Below, in pieces: positions 3,567 to 63,799 of a stretch of DNA of 64,000 bases (its first letter is position 1; every line of letters begins with the position of its first letter). Made by a program: the position numbers and the translations under genes. This stretch comes from Fulvivirga lutea (lineage in GTDB: Bacteria > Bacteroidota > Bacteroidia > Cytophagales > Cyclobacteriaceae), in assembly GCF_017068455.1 (NCBI RefSeq), contig NZ_CP070608.1:1407488-1471487 (forward strand), given 5' to 3'. The notes under the pieces were generated by a model that saw only the letters and a program-made list of their open reading frames with translations, was not told where the DNA came from and did no database searches.

Positions 3567-5356
3567 TGAAGTTGATAAACCATATCGCACGGTCAATATT
3601 CAATGAGAATGTCAGGTTGAGCTTGTCGAAACCCCATTCACATTTCGAAAGGTTCAATTTGACTATAAGTCTCCTATTGTTGCTTTGTTCAATAAACTCC
3701 TATTCACAAAACCTTGAATCCATTGGTCAATCAAAACCAATAGAAGTAAGTGGAGGGCTCTCGCTAAGTAATATAATCTATGCTGCCGATGGAATTGATC
3801 AAAGAAGGGATCCTTATACCTATTTTGCCTCAGGTAATGTAACGTTAAGCTTATACGGATGGTCAGTGCCATTTTCTTTCGCCTTTTCAAATCAAAATAG
3901 CTCTTTTCAGCAGCCATTTAATCAATATGGATTACATCCAACCTATAAGTGGATAACGGGGCATATTGGCTATACAAGTATGTCTTTTTCGCCATACACC
4001 TTAAATGGACATTTGTTTTTGGGAGCGGGAGTTGATTTGCAGCCAACAGATAAATTATCAATTTCTGCCATGTATGGTCGACTTCAAAAAGCAGTACAGC
4101 CGGATTCAACGAATGAGTCGGTTTTGCCAGCTTTTCATAGAACTGGTTTTGGGTTAAAAACCAGTTATGGCTCTGCTTCAGATAATGTCACATTCATTTT
4201 CTTTAGCGCTACAGATGATGAGAATTCATTGAATTATGTTCCTGAATCACTCGAGGTCTTGCCAAGAGAAAACCTTGTACTCAGCCTTGCTGGTAGTAAA
4301 ACAATTGTACCAAATCTAGTCTTGAAAGGAGAGTTTGCAACAAGTGCACTGACAAGAGATAAACGAGCAGCTTCTTATGAACCTTCAAATAAAAACATAT
4401 TCTCAACAGGTATTTTTAATCAGAAGCAATCTACGGGCTATTACAATGCCTATAACTTAGGCGTATCTTATGCCTTCAGTACATTTTCTATAGGAGCTGG
4501 TTATGAAAGAATTGATCCTGGCTATGAAACGTTAGGAGCTTATTTCTTCAATAATAATCTTGAAAATATTACTGCCAATGCAAACACTGCACTGTTCAGT
4601 GGAAAGGTAAATGTTGGTGTGAATGCCGGTTTGCAGCGAGATAATTTAGATGGTGAAAAGGTATCTTCTATGAGCCGTTTTGTTGGTTCTATGAATGTTG
4701 GCTACACCCCGAGCAACAGGCTGAATATTGCTGTTAATTACTCAAGCTTTAACACCTATACGAACATCCGTTCACAGTTTCAGGATATAAATCAGTTAAC
4801 CCCATATGATAATCTCGATACATTAAACTTTACCCAGATTTCACAAAGCGTTAATTCAAATGTTAATTATATGCTTTCTACAAACGAAGCCAGAAGGCAG
4901 AATATTAATGTCAATATTACTTATCAGAATGCAGCAGATGAACAAGGCGGTGTTGAGCAAAATAGCGGATCACAGTTTTATATGTTTAATGCAGCTTATA
5001 ATTTGAGTATCGTGCCTACGAACACCTCATTTACACTCGCTTTTAATTATAACAAAAATGAAGCAGCAGGTTTAAATTCTACCACCTTGGGGCCAACCTT
5101 AGGTATTAACAAAACATTACTAGACAAGAAAATGCGAACCGGTTTATCCGTGTCTTTAAACAATGCCTACACCAATAATCAGCTGGTAAACAGAGTGGTT
5201 AATTACCGATTAACAGGTAGCTACACCTTAAAGAAAAAGCACGCTTTTAATATTAGTGCAGTGGCATTGAACAGAACAACAGTAGGCGAGGATGGAGCTG
5301 TAGACTTTTTAGAGTTTACTGGCACAATAGGGTATAATTTGACGCTTGGGAATTAA
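3566..5356 (+). CDS. Outer-membrane beta-barrel protein, unknown function
   Basis: 596 residues rich in alternating aromatic/polar strands, ending in an NLTLGN-type strand; predicted outer-membrane barrel. The only start giving the full frame is GTG at 3566 overlapping the previous TAG. The first ~30 residues are encoded by a REP-like palindrome (3611-3663) and look unlike a signal peptide; a normal signal peptide begins only at LTISLLLLLCSINSYSQ, so the functional start may be the in-frame TTG at 3659. It is the third gene of the adhesin/PorP operon and may assist that system, but no known family motif was recognised beyond the barrel pattern. Confidence 0.7.
   Translation: MKLINHIARSIFNENVRLSLSKPHSHFERFNLTISLLLLLCSINSYSQNLESIGQSKPIEVSGGLSLSNIIYAADGIDQRRDPYTYFASGNVTLSLYGWSVPFSFAFSNQNSSFQQPFNQYGLHPTYKWITGHIGYTSMSFSPYTLNGHLFLGAGVDLQPTDKLSISAMYGRLQKAVQPDSTNESVLPAFHRTGFGLKTSYGSASDNVTFIFFSATDDENSLNYVPESLEVLPRENLVLSLAGSKTIVPNLVLKGEFATSALTRDKRAASYEPSNKNIFSTGIFNQKQSTGYYNAYNLGVSYAFSTFSIGAGYERIDPGYETLGAYFFNNNLENITANANTALFSGKVNVGVNAGLQRDNLDGEKVSSMSRFVGSMNVGYTPSNRLNIAVNYSSFNTYTNIRSQFQDINQLTPYDNLDTLNFTQISQSVNSNVNYMLSTNEARRQNINVNITYQNAADEQGGVEQNSGSQFYMFNAAYNLSIVPTNTSFTLAFNYNKNEAAGLNSTTLGPTLGINKTLLDKKMRTGLSVSLNNAYTNNQLVNRVVNYRLTGSYTLKKKHAFNISAVALNRTTVGEDGAVDFLEFTGTIGYNLTLGN
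3611..3663. repeat. REP-like imperfect palindrome inside coding start
   Basis: The left arm (3611-3631, GTCAGGTTGAGCTTGTCGAAA type) and right arm (3643-3663) are inverted copies with about five mismatches over 21 bases and a loop of 11. The left arm resembles a widespread Bacteroidota intergenic palindrome. Here it lies between the GTG codon and the signal peptide of the barrel gene, in the same operon. Confidence 0.6.
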
Positions 5357-5444: not shown

Positions 5445-5909
5445 ATGGAGTTAGAAAAATTAAATATCTACAGTATATCACTGGATTTGGCCGAAGAGGT
5501 CTATGAAAAAGTAATGATATGGAAACATTTTGATCGTGACACCATTGGTAAACAACTAGTAAGATCAGCGGATAGCATTGCCGCCAATATAAGTGAAGGT
5601 TTTGGAAGATATCATTTAAATGACTCTAAGAAGTTCTACTACTATTCCAGAGGTAGCCTGTTCGAAACTAAAACATGGCTAACCAAAGCAAATAGAAGAA
5701 AACTTATTGGTAATGATTTTTATCAGGAGAAAATAAATGAGCTCGAAAAGCTCGGCAAAATGCTCAATGCATTCATAACCTCAATGAGTAAAAATATGGC
5801 TAAAGAACCATTAGAAGAATATAAAATCAATAACCAAAACACCAACAACCAAAACACCAACAACCAACAACCAACAACCAACAACCAACAACTAAGAACT
5901 AAGAACTAA
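5445..5909 (+). CDS. Four-helix-bundle protein (23S rRNA intervening-sequence/bAvd-like family)
   Basis: 154 residues from ATG 5445; an in-frame TTG at 5424 lies within the upstream inverted repeat and is less likely. The core is the family pattern: an N-terminal helix, then LVRSADSIAANISEGFGR, then a YYYSRGSLFETKTWLTKA helix and a final amphipathic helix. These small proteins occur within or near 23S rRNA intervening sequences and as stand-alone genes in many Bacteroidota; their biochemical role is unsettled. The last ~25 residues are an Asn/Gln/Thr tail encoded by the downstream heptamer repeat, so the gene end has run into the repeat array. It sits alone between two operons of different function, as an inserted cassette would. 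Confidence 0.85.
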   Translation: MELEKLNIYSISLDLAEEVYEKVMIWKHFDRDTIGKQLVRSADSIAANISEGFGRYHLNDSKKFYYYSRGSLFETKTWLTKANRRKLIGNDFYQEKINELEKLGKMLNAFITSMSKNMAKEPLEEYKINNQNTNNQNTNNQQPTTNNQQLRTKN

Positions 5910-5940
5910 GAACCAACAACCAAAATACCAATAACCAATA
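5827..5940. repeat. Heptamer array (CCAACAA / CTAAGAA / CCAATAA)
   Basis: About 16 imperfect 7-base units. The most regular stretch is consecutive CCAACAA copies followed by three CTAAGAA copies and CCAATAA variants. The first 80 bases are translated as the tail of the four-helix-bundle protein; the rest reaches to within 4 bases of the next start codon. The same units precede the gene at 5378-5402. Confidence 0.8.
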
Positions 5941-5943
5941 CTC

Positions 5944-8900
5944 TTGAAAGCCTATCATACCATATTAACCATTCTAATTCTGCTGATATTTAGCATTACA
6001 GCAAAAACTCAAAACTTCCCTGTCCAAGCCAATTTATCTATTTCTCCACCTTATTCAGTATATCTGCAAGATTACATATCCCCGGGGGTTGATAAATTAA
6101 ATGTAAACATCCTTCCAACGGATTTTACCATTTCAGAGCTTCGTGTAAAACTCAGGATTAGTATTGAAGGCCAGAACGTTACGTTGCGCACTAAACCTTC
6201 CTTCCAGCCAACACCATTATTTATTAATGGTGGCGTGCCGCTAAGGTTAACTGGTTTTGACTTGGCTGAATATTTTAATCCTGATAACCTCGATTTTCAA
6301 GGCATCTCAAAACAACAGTTTTTGCAGAATGGAGCCCTGCCAGAAGGGGTTTACCGTATCAATATTGAAGTCTTGGAGTTCAACAGAAATGTGGTGATCT
6401 CAAATAGAGCTTTTGTTGTTGCCTGGATTATTCTAAATGATCCACCTTTAATTAACCTCCCGTTTAATGGAGAAAAAGTAAGGGCGACTGACCCTCAAAA
6501 TGTTATTTTTCAGTGGACACCAAGGCATACCGGGTCACCCAACTCTGCCTTTGCTACTGAATATGAATTCTCACTGGTAGAAATCTGGCCTGCAGGTCGC
6601 GATCCTGAAATAGCTATACGTTCAACCAGTCCCATTTACCAAACCACTACTCAAAGTACTACACTCGTTTATGGTATTGCCGAACCAGCATTGGTGCCCG
6701 GCAGAAGCTATGCCTTTAGAGTAAGAGCTAAAAGTATTGTAGGAATTGATGAATTGGACCTTTTTAAAAATGATGGCTATAGCCAGACGGGCACATTTAC
6801 TTTTGGTGATGAATGTAAGCCTCCTACAGGAATAGAAAGTAATACGATAAGTGCTAAAAGCTTCAACGCCACATGGAACACAGCATTTAATCATACCGGA
6901 TTTAATGTGCGCTATCGTGAATCAGATGAAAGGAATAATTCATGGTACGAAGAAGAAACGTTCATTGGAGAGCAGCGCATTGGCGCCCTCAAACCTGAAA
7001 CTGCTTATGAAGTACAAGTACGTGCTGCCTGTGGTAGTTTGGAAAGCCCGTATTCTGAATCTTTGGCTGTAGTAACAGATACCGAAGGCGAAATAGCTTT
7101 CAGTTGTGGATTACCACCCGAAACGTATGGTTTGGAAAACCGGGAACCACTTCAAAACCTTCTTATTGGTGAGTATATTTATGCCAACGATTTTGACATT
7201 AAAGTGAGAGAGGTAACAGGAAGCAACGGAGTATTCACAGGTACAGGAGTAGCTGAAATGCCATTATTTAGCATGGCAAAGGTTCGGGTAAATTTTGAAG
7301 GTATTAGTGTAAATACAGATTACCGCTTGGTGGATGGTGTTGTAACCACGATATATGACCCCAATAGTAGCATGATGGTGGATTTAGACCCTCAAGATTC
7401 ATTAGATGATGAAGCAGATGTAGATGATGACGGAAACAGTGGCAATGATGTTGTTGCAGATGCTGGCAATGGCATCTCCTATGACGAACCCATTGATTCA
7501 GTATATGTAGATGATAATGGTGATATAGTAGTTGTATTAGAAGATGGCAGCACAGACACAGTAACGCCCGACCAAGATGGCAGTGAAGATGAGGAACCTG
7601 AAGATACAGTAATCACTGATAGTGAAGGTAATACCTGGACTGTGGATAGTGGGGGGAATGTTACTGCTGGAACTGGAAATGCAGGTTCAGATACCGGAAA
7701 TCAAACACCGGTTCAAATCCAATTGCTACAGGAAAAACTTATCGTTGAAGTACTGGAAGAGTTTGAAACGGAGATCAATGCCTGGTTAGACACTTATGGC
7801 AAAGGTCCACTATCAGAAGAAGAATTAAGAAGGGCACTTGACCTTCCTAATTGCCTACCGGAAGATGAAGAAGCCCTGACCTGGATCAGTGAAGAAAAGA
7901 TACCGGCTTACAAAGAGAATCCGACTTCATTGCTTGACCAGATGAATGCCAATGATGGACACAAAGCACTATTAAGCGGGTTAATTGGTGGCCTTGACGA
8001 TGATAGCCAGTCTGTTAAATCTCAATTGGAATCAGAGCAATGGACAGAGGTAAAAGAAGCCACTTGCGATTACCTGCAGGCCGGAGTGGAAGAAGCATTG
8101 GCCAAGCTGTATGTGAGCATCGAAGGCACCAAATATAAAGATGGAGAAACAGCCATTGTAAAGCGGGAGTACAAAAAAGAAATTATGCTTACCGCTTACC
8201 AGGGCAATAATGAAATAGCCGAAGAACTTAGCTGGACGATTGATGATGAGAACCAGACCGGAACTTCAGTGGTATTTGATGCAGGTACAGTCTCAGCAGA
8301 TGCAGAAGGAAAGACAGTAACAGCCAGCCTTGGCAATAAACAAGTAACAGTAAAGATCGTAGTGGCGCAAGTCCTGCTTCTGCGTAGCATTACCATGGCC
8401 GTAAATGCTAACCTATACCCCCTAATTGAGCCGGAAGGTATTGCTGACCAGATTACTTTTGAGGCTGACAATAAAGATATATTAACGCTATTAGAAGGCT
8501 ATCCAACCTTAAAACTTACGGCAGGCAAACCTGGAGAAACCACCGTGACGGCCAAAGCTGGGAATACCGTTTTTCATCAAAAATCAATCAGGGTGATTGA
8601 GGAGCCGGAAGTGAAATTTGTACGACCTGTGGTGAGTAATGTTAATTTTGATAACATTACAGCATCTTCCATTAATTACACCACAATTATGCTTCCAGAA
8701 GTTGCAGGAGGTGCAGTTAATGGCCTCTGTTCGCCTGAAATAATCACAATTGATGAGCCGCAGTTTTTCTATTTAAAAGAAGATAAATGGTATCCCTACA
8801 TCGAGCGTGTAGAAGGAGAGTACTTTTTTGATTACCGATTGATTGATGGCCAGCAGGAAGTGACAGGCCCTGGCGGGAATACTACCGAGGACAATTACTG

Positions 8901-55807: not shown

Positions 55808-57276
55808 ACGTTGGAAAGAAAATAATACCCATTTTGTTAGGGCCTTCGGTCTTCTTACTAATGCAGCTCATAGGTGCGCCTAGCTCCATGCCACCACTGG
55901 CATTTCAGGTGCTTGCAGTTACCTTTTGGGTGGCTATCTGGTGGGTAACAGAAGCTATACCAATGGCTGTAACTGCCATGTTACCTATACTTTTATTTCC
56001 TTTAACAGGTGCGCTTGATATTAAAGAAACAACAACAGCATTTGGCGATAAATACATATTCCTGTACTTAGGTGGATTTTTAATAGCTATTGCAATAGAA
56101 AAATGGGATTTGCATAAACGTATTGCACTTACCATCATTGATCTAATAGGGTCAAATTTTGTACGTATCATACTGGGTTTTATGGTGGCCACTGCTTTTT
56201 TATCTATGTGGATTTCTAATACAGCCACTTCAGTAATGATGTTACCAATTGCGATTGCCGTGGCTGAGCAGTTTAAGAAAAGCCATGATGGCAAGAAAAA
56301 TGGAAAACTTGATGCGATTGGTAAAGCATTAATGCTGGCAGTTGCATATAGTGCTTCTATTGGTGGTTTTTCAACTCTTATAGGTACTCCGCCTAATTTG
56401 GTTTTGGCAGGTGTACTTGAAGAAACCTATGGGGTAAAGATTAGTTTTTTTGATTGGATGAAATTTGGGCTGCCTATTTCAATCACGCTTATTTTTATTT
56501 GCTGGAAGTATTTAACGTTGAAAGCATTTCCACTGAAGAATGTGGAGTTTCCAGGTGGAAGAAAGGCCATCAGAAAAATGAAGAAGGACTTAGGCAAAAT
56601 ATCCAAACAAGAGCGCGTTGTTTTATGGGTATTTATTGCTACTGCCACTTTATGGGTCACAAGATCATTACTGCAAAAGTTAATTCCAAATTTGGATGAT
56701 ACCATCATCGCTATGGCAGCTGGTACATTGTTATTTATTTTACCTTCAGGCAAAGGGAAAACTTTGTTGGTTTGGAAAGATGCGAAGAGACTTCCCTGGG
56801 ACATCATACTATTATTTGGAGGAGGTTTAGCCCTGGCCAGAGGATTTAATGAAACAGGATTAGCGGTTTGGATTGCCTCGCAGCTAACCGATTTACAAGG
56901 GCTATCATTGATATTCTTAATTCTGGTGATGGTGGCGTCAGTTAATTTCTTAACTGAAATTACTTCGAATTTAGCTACAACAGCCATGCTATTACCAGTG
57001 CTGGCACCTATGGCATTGGCTTTTGACTTGCACCCTTATATGATCATGGTATCTGTGACTATATCTGCTTCCTGTGCCTTTATGCTGCCAGTGGCAACCC
57101 CGCCTAACGCAGTAGTATTTGGTTCGGGCTACTTGCGCATCCCCGATATGGTGAGGACAGGATTTTTTATGAATCTTGTTTCAATACTAATTATTTCATT
57201 ATTAACATTTTACATGCTCCCTATAATTTGGGATTTTGATCAGGATGCTTTTCCGGCAGCTTTTATGCAGAAATAA
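55804..57276 (+). CDS. DASS (SLC13) sodium-coupled anion symporter
   Basis: 490 residues with about 11-12 membrane helices. The divalent-anion:sodium symporter pattern includes WVTEAIPMAVTAMLPI, MWISNTATSVMMLPIA and the duplicated late MLPVATPPNAVVFGSG. DASS proteins import dicarboxylates, citrate, sulfate or phosphate with Na+. It is the last gene of the porin-hydrolase operon; a sodium-linked uptake of an acidic product released by the hydrolases is the simplest reading. Confidence 0.88.
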   Translation: MNVGKKIIPILLGPSVFLLMQLIGAPSSMPPLAFQVLAVTFWVAIWWVTEAIPMAVTAMLPILLFPLTGALDIKETTTAFGDKYIFLYLGGFLIAIAIEKWDLHKRIALTIIDLIGSNFVRIILGFMVATAFLSMWISNTATSVMMLPIAIAVAEQFKKSHDGKKNGKLDAIGKALMLAVAYSASIGGFSTLIGTPPNLVLAGVLEETYGVKISFFDWMKFGLPISITLIFICWKYLTLKAFPLKNVEFPGGRKAIRKMKKDLGKISKQERVVLWVFIATATLWVTRSLLQKLIPNLDDTIIAMAAGTLLFILPSGKGKTLLVWKDAKRLPWDIILLFGGGLALARGFNETGLAVWIASQLTDLQGLSLIFLILVMVASVNFLTEITSNLATTAMLLPVLAPMALAFDLHPYMIMVSVTISASCAFMLPVATPPNAVVFGSGYLRIPDMVRTGFFMNLVSILIISLLTFYMLPIIWDFDQDAFPAAFMQK

Positions 57277-57407
57277 TATTAAAAACTCTAAAATACTTGA
57301 GTGTTTAGTTTCATAGCAGAAATGTATGAGACTGCATGTTAGAATGGCGTTACATTGTATGAAGTATTTGAAGTAGCATTGAACTGACTGTTAACACTCG
57401 TGACATT

Positions 57408-57446
57408 TACACCTATGGTTTGTTAAAGGATAAGCTACCGCATTAA
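57408..57446 (+). pseudogene. 39-bp remnant of a YeeE/YedE gene 3' end
   Basis: This codes YTYGLLKDKLPH and a TAA stop, the same as the last codons of the YeeE C-part (43569-43607) but for one residue; 35 of 39 bases match. Upstream of it no open continuation is seen, so it is a relic of a second copy, next to another anion transporter gene. Confidence 0.75.
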
Positions 57447-57480
57447 CCAGACCAATTAACTAATCAACATCGTGTTTCAG

Positions 57481-57603
57481 CTACCAAAGTAAAGTGGTAA
57501 GCTTATTTAAAAACTCAAGCACTTTAACTAATACTATTGAAACAGTAATTATTGCTAGGAAGTATATGTTTTTTTCGATCCGTTCGCTCACATTTACTTT
57601 CAT
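57481..57603 (-). CDS. Small membrane protein (40 aa)
   Basis: 40 residues, ATG 57603, stop 57481-57483, four bases after the receiver-like gene. A single hydrophobic segment (IYFLAIITVSIVLVKVLEFL) follows a charged N terminus (MKVNVSERIEKN). Position favours a real gene co-transcribed with the 123-residue protein. No family recognised. Confidence 0.45.
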   Translation of the reverse strand: MKVNVSERIEKNIYFLAIITVSIVLVKVLEFLNKLTTLLW

Positions 57604-57607
57604 AATT

Positions 57608-57979
57608 TTATATCGCTGTTAGTTTGGTTTTTAATTTTTTTGATTGATAGTTTTTTCTACTCAATACAGAAGCAATGGCATCATTAAGCTCATGAATGAA
57701 ATTGTGTATTAGTAAAATGGCCTGATTTTCTTCAGTGAAGTTCTTGAGATAAAAATCACTGAGGTAATCACTTAATATGATTAAGCCACGCGCATGATTT
57801 TTAAGTAATTGGGGGATATTATAGCCGTAGCTTAAGGTGTCATAAACCACAATGCTGGTATAGAATTCAACGGAATGAAGTTCACAGGGCTGGTCGTTAA
57901 ACCAAACGCACTCATAACCTTCTTCCGAAAGGAATTCTGCTAAGTGAATATTTTTACTTATTAAATAAATGCAGTCCAT
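57608..57979 (-). CDS. Receiver-like small protein, unknown
   Basis: 123 residues. The alternation IYLISKNIHLAEFLSEEGYE, SIVVYDTLSYG, GLIILSDYL and ILLIHNFIHELNDAIASVL resembles a CheY-like receiver fold, with D47 where the phosphate-accepting Asp would sit, but the conserved acidic pair near the start and the Lys are missing. It is probably a divergent receiver or adaptor. Its promoter has the composite operator block also found before yfiR, tying it to the kinase system. Confidence 0.5.
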   Translation of the reverse strand: MDCIYLISKNIHLAEFLSEEGYECVWFNDQPCELHSVEFYTSIVVYDTLSYGYNIPQLLKNHARGLIILSDYLSDFYLKNFTEENQAILLIHNFIHELNDAIASVLSRKNYQSKKLKTKLTAI

Positions 57980-58022
57980 GACAAAGAATATGACTGCAAA
58001 CCTCGGTAGGGTAGGGAGTATT

Positions 58023-58067
58023 TATTTAAGCATGCACACGTATTTCAACATCTACGTGATTCACTTA
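58023..58067 (-). promoter_or_regulatory. Composite operator block, copy 1
   Basis: Site A (58049-58067) is the near-perfect 19-bp dyad TCTACGTGATTCACTTAGA. Five bases away, site B (58023-58043) reads on the minus strand AAATACGTG-N4-TGCTTAAA. The block is 44-88 bases before the 57979 start codon. It is a likely site for the nearby LuxR-type regulator. Confidence 0.65.
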
Positions 58068-58081
58068 GAGGAAGGATAAAC

Positions 58082-58723
58082 TCAAATTATATCATCAAAA
58101 ATTCTGTTTTTTACGGCATATATTACCAGGCCTGCAGAACTTTTGGCACCTGTCTTTTCCATTAAATTACGCTTGTGCACTTCCACAGTTCTAATGCTTA
58201 TAAACAGCTCATCGGCAATTTCCTGATTGGATTTATCATCCATAATTAGTTTGTAAATATCTAACTCTCTGGGTGTTAGAGGTATGGAGTTGGATTGCCT
58301 CACCTTTTTCTTGGCAAGATTGTTCATGACCGTTTGTGCCACTTCAGGGCTGTAGAAAATTTCGTTATCCATCACCCGATCGATGGCTTCAATCATTTCT
58401 GACTGGTTGCAATTTTTTAGCAGATAACCACTAGCACCTGCATCCATCATTGATTTAATATGGTGATAATCGTTATGCATGGTAAGTGCAATTACCTTCA
58501 CGTTTTCAAATTCTTTTGTGATCTGAGTTGTAGAATCAATACCATTGAGCACAGCCATGTTAATATCTATCAACACCAGGTCAACAGGGTGTTGCCTTAA
58601 ATGGGCCAGGGCTTCGTTGCCATTTTTTGCTTCTTCAATGGTTTTAACTTTAGGGTGCTTTTCAACATAGAGCCTAACTCCATCCCTAACTATTTTGTGA
58701 TCATCAACAATTAATACATTCAT
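58082..58723 (-). CDS. NarL/LuxR-family response regulator
   Basis: 213 residues. The receiver has D7-D8, phospho-acceptor D53 in LVLIDINMAVLNG, and the KN lysine at ~102. The C-terminal LuxR helix-turn-helix (PLTPRELDIYKLIMDDKSNQ, then EIADELFISIRTVEVHKRNL) binds DNA. It starts 4 bases inside the kinase gene end, so it is the cognate partner. Dyads of 19 bp on both flanks fit the dimeric binding of this family. Confidence 0.92.
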   Translation of the reverse strand: MNVLIVDDHKIVRDGVRLYVEKHPKVKTIEEAKNGNEALAHLRQHPVDLVLIDINMAVLNGIDSTTQITKEFENVKVIALTMHNDYHHIKSMMDAGASGYLLKNCNQSEMIEAIDRVMDNEIFYSPEVAQTVMNNLAKKKVRQSNSIPLTPRELDIYKLIMDDKSNQEIADELFISIRTVEVHKRNLMEKTGAKSSAGLVIYAVKNRIFDDII

Positions 58724-61080
58724 TTTTCTATTACATAATGACTCTTAAACGGTATTTCGATAGTAATGCTTGTTCCGTGATTTATCCTCGATTCTATTGT
58801 TGCATTGCCCGATAAAAGTTGTGCTCGTTGTCTGATGCCCTCCAGGCCAAACTGCTGTTCTTTCTCGAGTTGGGTGATATCAAAGCCTTTACCATCATCT
58901 TCAATCGACCAAATAATTAAATCAGGGTAGAGCATTAATTGAATAGCAACCTGTTTGGCCTCTGCATATTTTAATACATTGTTTATTGCTTCCTGTGTTA
59001 TGCGATATAGGTGTAAACCCAGGTTCACAGAAATATCTTTGTCCTGTAAGTTATCATAAAACGAAAATTTGGTTTCAGAAATGGCATTCAACTCATTCAC
59101 CAAACTCTCTATCGATAGCTTGAGGCCAAAATCTTCAACATTTCGTGGCATTAGGTTATGTGAAATGTTACGTGTCTCTTTTATTGCCAACTCTAAAAAG
59201 CCTAAACCTTTCACCAATCGAGTGTTTAATTCGTTATACTCTAATTCTTTGTCTTTCAATGAATTGAAATATAGTGAAACAGTAGTTAGTTTTTGGCCCA
59301 AACTGTCGTGTAGTTCCTTGGCAATTCTTTTTCGTTCTCTGTCCTCTGTCTGAATAATGGTTTGCACTATTTTTTCTTCTGATTCCACACGATCGGTGAT
59401 ATCGATGATGATACCTTCCAGATAACCCTTCTCGATTTCCTGACCCCGATCGAATACCCATTTAGGGCCAGCTGCCGTGTAGATTTCATAGAATAATTTG
59501 TACGGCTTTTTTTCAGCAATGGCCTCTGCTACATCCCTTCTAATTTTGTCGTGATAATTTTCTTTAATGATATTGAAAATTGAGGACTTCGAAGTTTTCA
59601 ACTGGTCGGGTGTGTAGCCTGTGAGTTCAAGAGAGCCTTCACTCACAAAAGTGAGTTTGAAATCATTCTTATGGGCAGACCGATACACCATGCCTGGCAG
59701 ATTGGCCATTAACGCAAGTAATCGCGATTGATTCTTTCTTAAGCTTTCTTCGGCTTTTTTTCGATTTTTTTCATTCAGTACCTGTTCCGTAACATCAAAT
59801 AACAGCCCATCAATCACGCGCTCGCCACTACTTAGTTTTGTAGGTTTAAAGCGAGCATTCACCCATTTTTTTACAGAACTATATTCTATTGGCAGAGTCA
59901 TTTCACCATTACCACCAGTTTGCATTAATTGGCTCAAATATTCACGAGATTTTGTAATGAACTCATCAGGTAGTACATCACGACCGCGCAAATTCTTTTC
60001 TTTTATATCGCTATTTTTTATACCCAGATACGCCTCGCTGTTTCCGCTAATGTATTGCAGGCTAAACTCGCTATCAGTGCCCAGCCTGAAAAACATACCG
60101 GGCATATTTTCTATAAGCGATTGCAATTGTTCTTTGCTTTCTTCCAACTCATGTCTGATACGCCTTTGTTCTGTAATATTGGAAATGGATAAAACACTGT
60201 ACCTTGTTCCTTCTACCGGAAGCGGATACACACTTACCTCACAATAAAATTCAGAGCCATCTTTACGCTTCAGCGTTATTTCTTCCTCTAAACCAAGATG
60301 AAACACCTTGAAATCGTTGATTAAACCTTGACGAACTTTATGAAGCAGCGGGTAGTATTTCTCCGGTACTATTATTTCGCCTGGTTCGCCTAAAATCTCA
60401 TTGATCTGATAATCGAAATAGTGGGTGAAGGTTTTATTAATCTGATGGATTTTACCATCCTTAAACAAAACAATAGCAAATTGGCTATAGTCCAGAATGC
60501 TTTCCAGAAGCGTTACATTAAATCTCAATTCAGATTCTACTTCTTTTTCTTTCGTTACATCTTTTGATGTAAAAAGAATATAATCTATCTCCCCTTTATC
60601 ATCCAAAAGTGGTATAAAGCTTGAGTTTGACCAGCCTCTTTTCCCGTCAGGGTCTTTGTAATTTTCAAGGTAGGTAATGGGCTTTCTTTCAATAATGGTT
60701 TTCAAAATCTTGCTTTGCCTGGTAGCAATTTCGTTTTCATTTAGCTTTAATATTTCCACATAAAACCATTTCAAAGATTTTCCAATGACATCTTCTTTAG
60801 AATAATTAGTGTGCTTTTGTATTTGTATCCAGTAAGATTCAGGGAATTTAATGATGATCAAATTATTCTTATCTTTTTTTAACAACGCCACAAATTCCTT
60901 TGTGTAGGTGTACATAGATGATAGAATCCTTTCCGACTCTTGATACTTTTTCTGGGCTAAACTACTATCAGCTTCAACAGAGCTTTTGATCTTCCAATAG
61001 TGCAAATACATAAGAAGGTAGACTAGCAATCCGGCAGTTCCAGCAGACAAAAACATGTATAAAACCAAATTGAGAGTCAT
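58720..61080 (-). CDS. Multi-PAS HPK7-type sensor histidine kinase
   Basis: 786 residues: one N-terminal membrane helix (~5-27), four PAS domains (~50-185, 195-315, 320-445, 455-570), then a HisKA_3 dimerization helix with phospho-acceptor H591 in KELHDSLGQ, and an HATPase domain (EAINNVLKYA, DDGKGFD, GLEGIRQRAQLLSG). This is the NarX-like kinase type that pairs with LuxR-type regulators. PAS domains may sense redox or small molecules. Start codon is 22 bases from operator block 2, suggesting autoregulation. Confidence 0.9.
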   Translation of the reverse strand: MTLNLVLYMFLSAGTAGLLVYLLMYLHYWKIKSSVEADSSLAQKKYQESERILSSMYTYTKEFVALLKKDKNNLIIIKFPESYWIQIQKHTNYSKEDVIGKSLKWFYVEILKLNENEIATRQSKILKTIIERKPITYLENYKDPDGKRGWSNSSFIPLLDDKGEIDYILFTSKDVTKEKEVESELRFNVTLLESILDYSQFAIVLFKDGKIHQINKTFTHYFDYQINEILGEPGEIIVPEKYYPLLHKVRQGLINDFKVFHLGLEEEITLKRKDGSEFYCEVSVYPLPVEGTRYSVLSISNITEQRRIRHELEESKEQLQSLIENMPGMFFRLGTDSEFSLQYISGNSEAYLGIKNSDIKEKNLRGRDVLPDEFITKSREYLSQLMQTGGNGEMTLPIEYSSVKKWVNARFKPTKLSSGERVIDGLLFDVTEQVLNEKNRKKAEESLRKNQSRLLALMANLPGMVYRSAHKNDFKLTFVSEGSLELTGYTPDQLKTSKSSIFNIIKENYHDKIRRDVAEAIAEKKPYKLFYEIYTAAGPKWVFDRGQEIEKGYLEGIIIDITDRVESEEKIVQTIIQTEDRERKRIAKELHDSLGQKLTTVSLYFNSLKDKELEYNELNTRLVKGLGFLELAIKETRNISHNLMPRNVEDFGLKLSIESLVNELNAISETKFSFYDNLQDKDISVNLGLHLYRITQEAINNVLKYAEAKQVAIQLMLYPDLIIWSIEDDGKGFDITQLEKEQQFGLEGIRQRAQLLSGNATIESRINHGTSITIEIPFKSHYVIEK

Positions 61081-61101
61081 TTCTTCGGATATATTGAATA
61101 A

Positions 61102-61146
61102 TCTACGTGTTTCACTTAGACATTAAAATACGTGAATCTGCTTAAA
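61102..61146 (+). promoter_or_regulatory. Composite operator block, copy 2
   Basis: Site A (61102-61120) is TCTACGTGTTTCACTTAGA; after 5 bases, site B (61126-61146) is AAATACGTG-N4-TGCTTAAA. Order, spacing and orientation to the promoter match copy 1. It is 59-103 bases before yfiR-like 61205 and 22 bases from the kinase start on the other side. Confidence 0.7.
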
Positions 61147-61204
61147 TCATGTGCATGATAGTTTATCAAGTTTGCATTGAAAAATTAGTTAAATCAATAC
61201 AACC

Positions 61205-61708
61205 ATGAAAAAACTAAACTATTTAACAGCCCTAATATTAATGTGTGCCTTAAGCATGCCGCTTTTGGCTCAAAATGCAGAGAGTCAGATCAAAACCTTG
61301 TTTGTATACAATTTTACAAGGTACATTCAATGGCCTAACAACGATGGAAATGTAACCATCGGTATTCTTGGCAATGATGAGCAGATTGTTGCAGCGTTTA
61401 AGGAAATGGCCGCAAAAAAATCAAGTTCCTCGGCCAAAATTATTATTGAAGTATTTACCGATGTGTCCAAATCAGGAAACTATGAACTGGTTTACATTCC
61501 TGAAGGTAGTAGCCATCTAATCTCATCGGTTTCCAAATCGGCTAAGACCGTTTTGGTTTCTGAAAAGCCAGGTATGACACAAAAAGGAAGCGATATCAAT
61601 TTTGTGCATAAAGACGGTAAAATTCGATTTGAATTGAACAAAAAGTCTATTGACAATTCACAATTCAAAGTGGCGAGCCAGCTAGTAAGTCTTGCCATTG
61701 TTGTTTAA
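61205..61708 (+). CDS. YfiR-family periplasmic protein (DUF4154)
   Basis: 167 residues, signal peptide to LLAQ. The YfiR pattern is clear: IKTLFVYNFTRYIQWP, IGILGNDEQIVAAF, a VYIPEGSS step and the final GKIRFELN...KVASQLVSLAIVV. In Pseudomonas YfiR represses a diguanylate cyclase; in Bacteroidota it usually neighbours TonB receptors and sensor proteins, as here. It starts the yfiR-receptor transcript and is governed by the composite operator. Confidence 0.88.
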   Translation: MKKLNYLTALILMCALSMPLLAQNAESQIKTLFVYNFTRYIQWPNNDGNVTIGILGNDEQIVAAFKEMAAKKSSSSAKIIIEVFTDVSKSGNYELVYIPEGSSHLISSVSKSAKTVLVSEKPGMTQKGSDINFVHKDGKIRFELNKKSIDNSQFKVASQLVSLAIVV

Positions 61709-61732: not shown

Positions 61733-63799
61733 ATGAAAAATACAATCAAATTTTTAACAGTTATGGCCTTAGCGATGGTTATTGCACCGTCATACGGCCA
61801 GGAAGAAGATATTTTCGAGTTGAGCCTCGAAGAGTTAATGGATATAGATATTTATTCTGTATCAAAAAAGGCGGAATCATTATTTGAAGCACCGCTTTCA
61901 AGTTCTACGCTTACAAAAGAAGAGATTTATAACGCAGGTGCTACCAGCATTCCTGAAGCGTTGCGTTTAGTTCCCGGTCTTATTGTAAGAGAAATGACGA
62001 ATGGCTCCTATGATATTCATTTAAGAGGTTTTGACAACATTAACAGGTACGGTGACGGAACAAGTTCTGCTAACCAAATTACCTTGGTAATGATTGACGG
62101 CAGACCTGTATTTAACTACAACTTAGGCGGAACTAACTGGGAAGCATTGCCGGTAGACTTAGTGGATGTTGAGCGAATTGAAGTAGTTAGAGGTCCTTCA
62201 GCACCACTTTACGGACCAAATGCAGTAGCAGGTGTTATTAACATTATTACAAAAGATGTAGACGGTGATGGCGTAGTTGCCAATGCCAATGTTTCAGCCG
62301 GAACGGATAATACGTATATCGGTGGTGTTAGATTAGGCTACCAATTCAATGAGAAATTCTCTGCTCAGGTGTCTGGTAATTTCCAGCGTAGAGACAGACA
62401 AGACGATGAAATTTTCTTGTATCAGCAAAATGCATATGGCGATCCGGGTAACGACAATTTTGAAACAGGTGTAGAAAGAAATGGTGTAAATCTAATGTTA
62501 GATTATGCTGTTGCTGAAGATTTTAATATCGGAGTACAAACAGGATTGCAAAGAGCAGAAGTTGTTAAGCCGTTTACTCAAAATGCTACCACACCATTTT
62601 CACAGTCAGTGTATGAGTCAGAATATGTGAACTTAGCTGTAAACAAAGGTGGATTATCAGGTAGATTTTCTTATACAACAGGTTTTGATGACCTTAATAA
62701 GGGAGCAGCACAGGTGTTGTTAAAATACGATTACTCCATTGTAGATGCCAATCTGGAATATAATTGGAATTTGTCAGATAAAATCTCTGTTCGTCCGGGG
62801 TTCAGTTATCAAAGTGCAGCATATAATAATGAAGATTATGTGGATTTATCACAGGGTACAATAGGCGTATTTCAAGGCGAGCAAACGGTAGAAAATATAG
62901 CCGGATCTTTAATGGCTGACATTGAAGTAACTGAAAAACTAAGATTGGTTGCTGGCGGTCGAGTAGATAAATTTAACTCACCTGACGAAGCGTATTTTGC
63001 TTATCAATTTGCTGCAACATATGACATTAACGATAAGAACTTGATTAGAGCAGTTGTTTCAAAATCTAACAGTGGATCATTTATAGGGCCCAACTTTTTA
63101 GATGTACAATTACCTCCTGCTAACCTGTACTATCAGGGAGATAAAAACCTAGATTTATTTCAGATTCAAATGTTTGAATTAGGTTATAGAACTAAATTGA
63201 GCAATAAGTTAGAATTGAATATTGAATTATTCAGACAACAAGCAGAGAATACCAATGCCTTGATTGTAGACATACCACAGGCACCTTATACTCCTGGCGG
63301 TGACTACTTCAGGTATGTAAACATGCCGGTTGAGTCTGTTCAAAATGGTGTTACACTTTCAGCTAATTATGTGCCGTCTACAAAAGTGCAGCTAAAGCCA
63401 TTTGTAACATTCCAAAAAACAGAATCTGAGAACCTGGCATCATCCCAAAGCATTTTTGGACTGGCAGATCTTAGTGATGATGAGAACGATCAAACTCCTG
63501 CAGTATATGGTGGGTTCTACTTAAACGTGAAAGCCACAGAAAAGCTAACTGTGAATTTGAACCCTTACTTTATGAGTGAGCAAAATCAGTACAGTTTTTA
63601 TGACAATGTAAACCCAGCTACTACTGTGGGTGAAATAGATAGCCGTTTAATCGTAAATGCAAAAGTGAATTATATGATTAACAACCACTTTAATGTATAT
63701 CTAAACGGAAGAAACTTATTAGGTGATGAAAAGGCAGAGTTTTATGGAACTGACAGAACCAGCATGTTATTGATGGCTGGCGCTTCCATCAAATTCTAA
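61733..63799 (+). CDS. TonB-dependent receptor
   Basis: 688 residues, signal peptide to SYGQ. An N-terminal extension (EEDIFELSLEELMDIDIYSVSKKAE) precedes the plug (~50-170; LRLVPGLIVREM, MIDGRPVFNYN, VEVVRGPSAPLYGPNAVAGVINI-like run) and then a 22-strand barrel ending in ASIKF with a terminal Phe. It imports a ligand with TonB energy. No SusD partner follows, so it is not a classical SusCD pair. Substrate unknown; the YfiR gene 24 bases upstream suggests a signal-coupled system. Confidence 0.9.
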   Translation: MKNTIKFLTVMALAMVIAPSYGQEEDIFELSLEELMDIDIYSVSKKAESLFEAPLSSSTLTKEEIYNAGATSIPEALRLVPGLIVREMTNGSYDIHLRGFDNINRYGDGTSSANQITLVMIDGRPVFNYNLGGTNWEALPVDLVDVERIEVVRGPSAPLYGPNAVAGVINIITKDVDGDGVVANANVSAGTDNTYIGGVRLGYQFNEKFSAQVSGNFQRRDRQDDEIFLYQQNAYGDPGNDNFETGVERNGVNLMLDYAVAEDFNIGVQTGLQRAEVVKPFTQNATTPFSQSVYESEYVNLAVNKGGLSGRFSYTTGFDDLNKGAAQVLLKYDYSIVDANLEYNWNLSDKISVRPGFSYQSAAYNNEDYVDLSQGTIGVFQGEQTVENIAGSLMADIEVTEKLRLVAGGRVDKFNSPDEAYFAYQFAATYDINDKNLIRAVVSKSNSGSFIGPNFLDVQLPPANLYYQGDKNLDLFQIQMFELGYRTKLSNKLELNIELFRQQAENTNALIVDIPQAPYTPGGDYFRYVNMPVESVQNGVTLSANYVPSTKVQLKPFVTFQKTESENLASSQSIFGLADLSDDENDQTPAVYGGFYLNVKATEKLTVNLNPYFMSEQNQYSFYDNVNPATTVGEIDSRLIVNAKVNYMINNHFNVYLNGRNLLGDEKAEFYGTDRTSMLLMAGASIKF

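Follow-up and report, generated by a model that had tools for sequence, protein, structure and literature searches.

Response regulators of the NarL/FixJ family, to which GacA belongs, are the closest described counterparts of the system reported here; among NarL-type regulators, BvgA of the Bordetella BvgS/BvgA system uses several sites stepping toward the promoter. In the sequence studied here, a 64,000-nucleotide stretch of the Fulvivirga lutea genome (contig NZ_CP070608.1, positions 1,407,488 to 1,471,487; here referred to as the window), the genes of a PAS kinase and a NarL-type regulator lie between two copies of a composite operator (blocks 1 and 2), each consisting of a site A and a site B and directed at a gene outside the pair. 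We propose, with a probability of about 0.82, that the regulator encoded between the blocks binds them and controls both outer genes. For NarL of Escherichia coli, a 7-2-7 site geometry is known from PMC4549865 and PMC9314961, the latter also describing NarL-type activation from a single site at -44.5. The upstream activating sequence (UAS) of GacA at Pseudomonas rsmY and rsmZ reads TGTAAG-N6-CTTACA in PMC4950607.

The regulator at our locus shares with NarL the combination of a receiver and a GerE domain, and site B is likewise a 16-bp inverted-heptamer element of the 7-2-7 type. In addition, an engineered NarL site, TACCCCTAAAGGGGTA, shown in PMC4549865, resembles a spacing variant of the block in a metagenome-assembled genome (MAG; locus L025). 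However, the system departs from NarL in its TAMG/CKTA half-sites, the fixed pairing of two sites, the 7-1-7 form of the first site and the Bacteroidota -7 box, and no nitrate link was seen. The GacA targets described in PMC4950607 have similar TAAG...CTTA half-sites upstream of small RNA genes, as apparently in the relatives of our species, but here the spacers are longer, two sites stand at a fixed distance near the promoter, and protein genes are targeted too. In kind, we have here a NarL-type regulon whose double operator is unusual and fixed, and no description of this operator was found in the titles and abstract openings of the open-licence literature.

Composite operator and promoter geometry

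The block cores are located at 58027 to 58067 (minus strand, block 1) and 61104 to 61144 (plus strand, block 2), each aimed at its own gene, with the composite form TAMG-N7-CKTA-N10-TAMG-N8-CKTA, then 26 bp, and then TTTG. A first-pass annotation of the window had pointed out two matching composite blocks flanking the operon in the same A-to-B order toward the gene, and exactly two are present. Its 19-bp dyad for site A was right as to the palindrome, but the outer TC/GA bases are not conserved in relatives, and instead of a 5-bp gap there are cores of 15 and 16 bp separated by 10 bp. Similarly, the GTTTGCA box that it saw after B is found in both blocks, but not over a range of 22 to 24 bases, as the B core and the start of TTTG are 26 bp apart in each. 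The operator features are the following.

58053..58067, minus strand: block 1 site A, 15 bp
58027..58042, minus strand: block 1 site B, 16 bp
57997..58004, minus strand: -7 box of the receiver-like gene promoter, GAGGTTTG; TTTG starts 26 bp after B
61104..61118, plus strand: site A of block 2, a near-palindrome of 15 bp (7-1-7 type) with its centre predicted at about -67
61129..61144, plus strand: site B of block 2, inverted half-sites over 16 bp (7-2-7 geometry) with the centre predicted at about -41.5
61167..61174, plus strand: -7 box of the yfiR promoter, CAAGTTTG; TTTG at 61171-61174, starting 26 bp after B

Read toward its gene, site A of block 1 is the reverse complement of site A of block 2 except for the centre base, an orientation swap that is possible because A is near-palindromic. 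A generic pattern of 16 positions gave 2 exact matches in the 64-kb window, none with one or two mismatches, 6 with three and 31 with four, compared with means of 0, 0.03, 0.37, 3.9, and 33.5 for zero to four mismatches in 60 first-order Markov windows. When the whole genome (4.14 Mb, one contig) was scanned with site A allowing up to 3 mismatches, four rows were obtained (two exact, block 1 on the reverse strand, and an unrelated one with 3 mismatches; 5 in the reversed control), while site B gave 2 exact matches and 26 others with 2 to 3 mismatches (24 in the reversed control). It is the composite, and not the single sites, that stands out, since A and B alone are rare only when exact.

Promoter geometry was studied in 48 distinct blocks that deviate from the pattern at no more than one position, coming from the window and from loci L037 to L049 and L109 to L117 (L108 was excluded, as were rows with an N or truncated at the end of a locus). 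TTTG began 26 bp after B in 41 of them and 27 bp after B in 3, and the remaining 4 had TTTA or TTTT at 26 bp. Positions 43 to 58 of the composition table (the third to eighteenth base after B) carried at most 0.23 bit each. Mere close kinship as the origin of the operator likeness was considered and rejected, given that the bases from B to the -7 box are mostly near random and the distance is fixed. The -7 consensus of the Bacteroidota sigma-A factor is TAnnTTTG according to PMC7366714; over the 48 blocks, its A was present in 43, its TTTG in 41, and its leading T in only 18. In a class II promoter, the activator has a fixed site some 41.5 bp before the start and takes over from a -35/-33 element; around -33, the composition table of these blocks shows no conserved TTG. 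With the -7 box placed at -11 to -4, the centre of B falls at -41.5 and that of A at -67, which we read as putative class II and class I activator positions, respectively. Six blocks with other A-B spacings (16-8-16, 16-7-16, or 15-8-16) retain TTTG at 26 bp, and a seventh variant, at the 3' terminus of the L041 receiver-like gene, has TTTA there; in variants, site A can have the 7-2-7 form. This rigid geometry was overlooked by the first-pass annotation, and the apparent noncoding RNA targets of the relatives lay beyond its view.

Conservation with the kinase and alternative readings

We analyzed 58 genomes, 15 of the same genus (the own genome included) and 43 of other genera. Kinase orthologues (E ≤ 1e-60) were detected in 14, namely, the own genome and 13 of the other 14 same-genus genomes. 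An operator model (R1) built on 39 blocks of relatives, none from the window, had matches at E ≤ 1e-4 in exactly these 14 kinase-bearing genomes. G011, of the same genus and without the kinase, gave a best E of 0.27, and none of the 43 other-genus genomes had a match at E ≤ 1e-4, the best being partial matches in G044 (E 8.6e-4) and G025 (E 9.2e-4). Because the blocks of the relatives trained R1, the co-occurrence is partly circular for them, but not for the own genome or the other genera. In the own genome, R1 assigned 31.1 and 29.6 bits to the window blocks and 15.7 to the next match; a second model of the same type with the spacer and the -7 box added (R2; 43 of 46 nonwindow blocks) assigned them 44.1 and 38.4 bits, with the third match at 16.5. 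Along similar lines, R2 was run on 394 other genomes sampled across the class, of which 25 had a match at E ≤ 0.01 (best, 22.5 bits). These and the weak other-genus matches of R1 we took for chance; both searches were run with stricter filters, by which weak matches are lost.

Conservation at orthologous loci, the test set by the first-pass annotation, was assessed by comparison with 13 kinase regions of relatives. A block was found directly after the regulator gene in all 14 same-genus loci, in the 15-10-16 arrangement in nine and as 16-8-16, 16-7-16, or 15-8-16 in five (L039, L041, and L046 to L048). An exact 15-10-16 block was located upstream of the kinase in 12 of the 14; L047 had none there, and the contig of L041 stops short of that place. 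In a scan of 15 loci (same-genus loci, L025, L029, and L030) together with 9 kb from the window, 192,575 bases in all, the composite appeared 28 times exactly, 14 times with one mismatch, and 11 times with two, compared with 0, 0, and 2 in the reversed control. Beyond the genus, the MAG locus L025 has the same architecture, with a variant block and TTTG at 26 bp. The earlier idea of a palindromic operator for a LuxR/NarL-type regulator that would control both outer genes is well supported: the composite is seldom met in the genome, orthologous loci retain it, and among the 58 genomes, matches at E ≤ 1e-4 are confined to those with the kinase.

Several observations weigh against this reading. 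The two -7 boxes of the window (CAAGTTTG and GAGGTTTG) are without the leading T, the -41.5 and -67 positions are predictions based on that box, and site A is 7-1-7 rather than the classical 7-2-7. With a spacing-tolerant exact pattern, TTTG was absent at 26 bp in 10 of 41 same-genus matches, a figure in which opposite-strand readings and TTTA/TTTT cases are mixed. Besides, among 14 regulator-like contig loci (L023 and L024 appear to be records identical to L041 and L044 and so are not independent), 11 (L026 to L036; 25 to 49% identity, some cut by contig ends) had no block, and the reversed control gave one match each in L027 and L028. Since these 11 are blockless, the pairing of operator and regulator is seen only with close orthologues.

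The direction of block 2 bears on the claim that the regulator controls its own operon through it. Just 23 bp separate the end of its A core from the start codon of the kinase, and A is near-symmetric, so that a bound protein would occupy or adjoin the kinase promoter and may affect it, e.g., sterically. A block 2 that is bidirectional or autoregulatory, also activating or repressing the kinase-regulator operon, would fit this arrangement. However, in the 12 loci with an exact kinase-adjacent block, TTTG was at 26 bp on the kinase-distal side in 12 and on the kinase side in none (nearest offsets there of 25, 27, 24, and 23, once each), and the distance from the block to the first kinase ATG varied from 10 to 63 bp. 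Block 2 is thus an outward promoter, as TTTG stands at 26 bp only away from the kinase; the self-control claim finds no support here, and we regard the bidirectional or autoregulatory alternative as rather unlikely.

As to what binds the blocks, the half-sites of different NarL-type regulators are alike, and another regulator sharing the same distribution could be the binder, a further point against our proposal. In that case, another dimeric regulator, of the LuxR/NarL type or not, with its gene at some other place would act on the blocks, and the enclosed operon would be a mere neighbour. This is improbable in view of the block or spacing variant beside the kinase-regulator pair in 14 of 14 kinase-bearing genomes, the lack of any match below E 0.27 in the kinase-free G011, and the fact that the only two strong sites of the own genome flank this pair. 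Near-identical 45-bp blocks in inverted orientation might also stem from a mobile element or a general repeat, and the first-pass annotation had named hundreds of copies elsewhere as the sign of the latter. The genome counts led us to reject this possibility as practically negligible, with just two copies, both strong sites, in 4.14 Mb, a strict promoter geometry, and bases between B and the -7 box that are mostly not conserved.

Returning to control by the enclosed regulator, the operator is probably its own activation site, because related species carry this rigid switch next to the same pair, ahead of protein genes and of apparent small RNA genes. The sequences directly show the anatomy, rarity, conservation, fixed spacing, co-occurrence and kinds of target, from which we infer the identity of the binder, the activating sign, the role of phosphorylation and that of the pseudo-receiver. 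A signal at the kinase would lead to phosphotransfer to the NarL-type regulator, which, once phosphorylated, would bind as a pair of dimers, the first occupying B, next to RNA polymerase, and the second A. The bound regulator would then switch on two transcripts, one with yfiR and the TonB-type receptor gene and the other with a pseudo-receiver (see below) that would feed back on the regulator or the kinase. Sister species use the promoter again, ahead of PAS kinase and ECF sigma factor genes, of yfiR genes at other places, and of apparent small RNA genes.

Genes of the locus and the pseudo-receiver

Between the two blocks, the PAS/HisKA_3 kinase and the NarL-type regulator are encoded on the minus strand; outside them are the 123-amino-acid gene (minus strand) on one side and yfiR with a TonB-plug gene (plus strand) on the other.

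57608..57979, minus strand: pseudo-receiver protein of 123 amino acids, receiver fold without a DNA-binding domain; homologues at the equivalent place in relatives; AlphaFold2 model
58082..58723, minus strand: NarL/FixJ (LuxR-type) response regulator, presumed binder; PF00072 and PF00196
58720..61080, minus strand: PAS sensor histidine kinase (HisKA_3) by Pfam; orthologues in 13 of 14 other same-genus genomes
61205..61708, plus strand: YfiR/HmsC-like protein (DUF4154; PF13689), predicted target of block 2
61733..63799, plus strand: TonB-dependent receptor plug-domain protein (PF07715), 24 bp downstream of yfiR

The regulator has the domain composition of the NarL/FixJ family, i.e., a receiver (PF00072, E 1.3e-28) and a C-terminal GerE/LuxR helix-turn-helix (PF00196, E 3.2e-18), and its recognition-helix region is near-invariant among 15 aligned regulators, including that of the MAG locus L025. 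The kinase (58720-61080) shows no extracellular sensor domain by Pfam, and its L040 orthologue (5618-8332, minus strand) carries an N-terminal SBP_bac_3 sensor together with PAS domains; apparently, the sensory end was swapped or lost. The L040 kinase is in this respect like the BvgS/BvgA system, but Pfam found neither a receiver nor an Hpt domain in the window kinase, and the targets are unrelated. Four yfiR-type genes are present in the own genome, and only one of them (61205..61708) has the operator.

The 123-amino-acid protein had been called receiver-like, which is borne out by fold comparison in spite of the lack of any Pfam match. Its AlphaFold2 model (mean pLDDT, 81) has the receivers of RcsB, LiaR, and VraR as the closest solved folds, although none at E ≤ 0.001 (best, RcsB; E 2.1e-3 and template modeling [TM] score of 0.69). 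At the canonical positions of the receiver active site, the 13 homologues that were aligned all have an Asp (residue 47 of the window protein), and in the same alignment neither an acidic pair after strand 1 nor a Lys after strand 5 was found; three of the five active-site residues are missing. A pseudo-receiver is, in PMC12632262, a receiver fold without one or more of the five active-site residues, a description that applies to this protein by its fold and its missing residues; the same paper defines such proteins as computationally identified receivers, and here there is no Pfam receiver match. The protein may be a feedback partner of the regulator or the kinase.

Targets and apparent small RNAs in relatives

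Eight regions with R1 matches at E < 0.005, all from same-genus genomes but on other contigs, were fetched, together with L116 and L117, which flank known loci. R1 recovered targets away from the kinase locus that were outside its training set. In G003, blocks precede yfiR genes at L109 and L115, and no yfiR was found in the 12.5 kb surrounding its kinase; at L110 and L111, the genes behind the blocks are ECF sigma factors. L108, probably the continuation of the G001 locus, has two blocks with a PAS kinase behind one, and PAS kinases also follow within-locus blocks in several relatives (Pfam was run on two). In L112 (minus strand, 2570-2899) and L114 (3018-3365), the block precedes a protein of about 110 amino acids with little beyond a HisKA phosphoacceptor match, and in L113, no clear gene was seen behind it.

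Some blocks are followed by a terminator-like hairpin instead of a gene. Considering open reading frames (ORFs) of at least 90 codons starting no more than 200 nt from TTTG and terminator-like hairpins within 260 nt, 26 of the 48 blocks had only an ORF, 17 only a hairpin, 1 both, and 4 neither (one at a contig end). The terminator rule was satisfied at 41 of 1,500 random positions. The 18 terminators ended 104 to 232 nt after TTTG, 17 of them at 104 to 162 nt, and the short terminator-ended transcripts predicted behind the operator are apparent small RNA genes. At the gathering score, Rfam found only tRNA in 7 loci of relatives, the apparent small RNAs being unmatched, and over positions 57200 to 61300 of the window, it gave a single subthreshold snoRNA match.

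One group (family 1) is made up of a GGTTTAGGTTGATTA motif and a terminator, and 6 of its 10 predicted pairs have changes on both sides. A model trained on seven genomes found those seven at E < 1e-7 among 37 searched, with weak matches in five other-genus genomes (E 0.0045 to 0.05) and none at E ≤ 0.05 in the own genome. Its blocks are in L045 (minus strand, 4239 and 4041), L049 (minus strand, 3856 and 3658), L038 (minus strand, 3846 and 3070), L040 (minus strand, 4417), L042 (7917), and L043 (minus strand, 4303). In some loci, the small RNA-like genes are in tandem, each preceded by a composite operator, and the terminator covaries. A 40-amino-acid lipoprotein-like ORF (CS.YTCPTYSK) is located directly upstream of a variant of the motif in L040 (minus strand, near 4000) and L043 (minus strand, near 3700).

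L046 (minus strand, 2466, 2274, and 2059) and L047 (9898, 10305, and 10695) contain three consecutive units of operator and short RNA upstream of the kinase; these RNAs form a distinct family with a AGTGAAGG...CCTTCACT-type terminator. A third kind of RNA, C poor and G/A rich, with repeated GAAGTTG/GAAGTG words and a terminator, was seen in L040 (8374), L042 (minus strand, 3967), and L043 (8252), where it sits between the operator and the gene of a TTWVIDPTHSSIQFEV-type protein, which we take to be YceI-like.

Compared with Gac/Rsm, no small RNA driven by the regulator was found in the own genome, where both strong operators precede protein genes, whereas 18 blocks of relatives precede a terminator-like hairpin. 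A tentative picture, which we hold as possible rather than probable, is that of a Bacteroidota cascade of the Gac type, with a NarL-type regulator, a rigid two-site promoter, several unrelated and often tandem small RNAs, a pseudo-receiver brake, and signalling proteins, of which the own species would have kept only the two protein branches.

For a Bacteroidota two-component system, the finding yields a precise promoter code that can be tested and that predicts transcription starts at single-base resolution, here at about 61178 (plus strand) and 57993 (minus strand). The code predicts targets throughout the genus, among them apparent small RNA genes that have no match in Rfam. The pseudo-receiver gains a regulatory context, as it has the same type of promoter as the outputs of the regulator that it may restrain. 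The small RNA branch in the relatives is the part most worth following.

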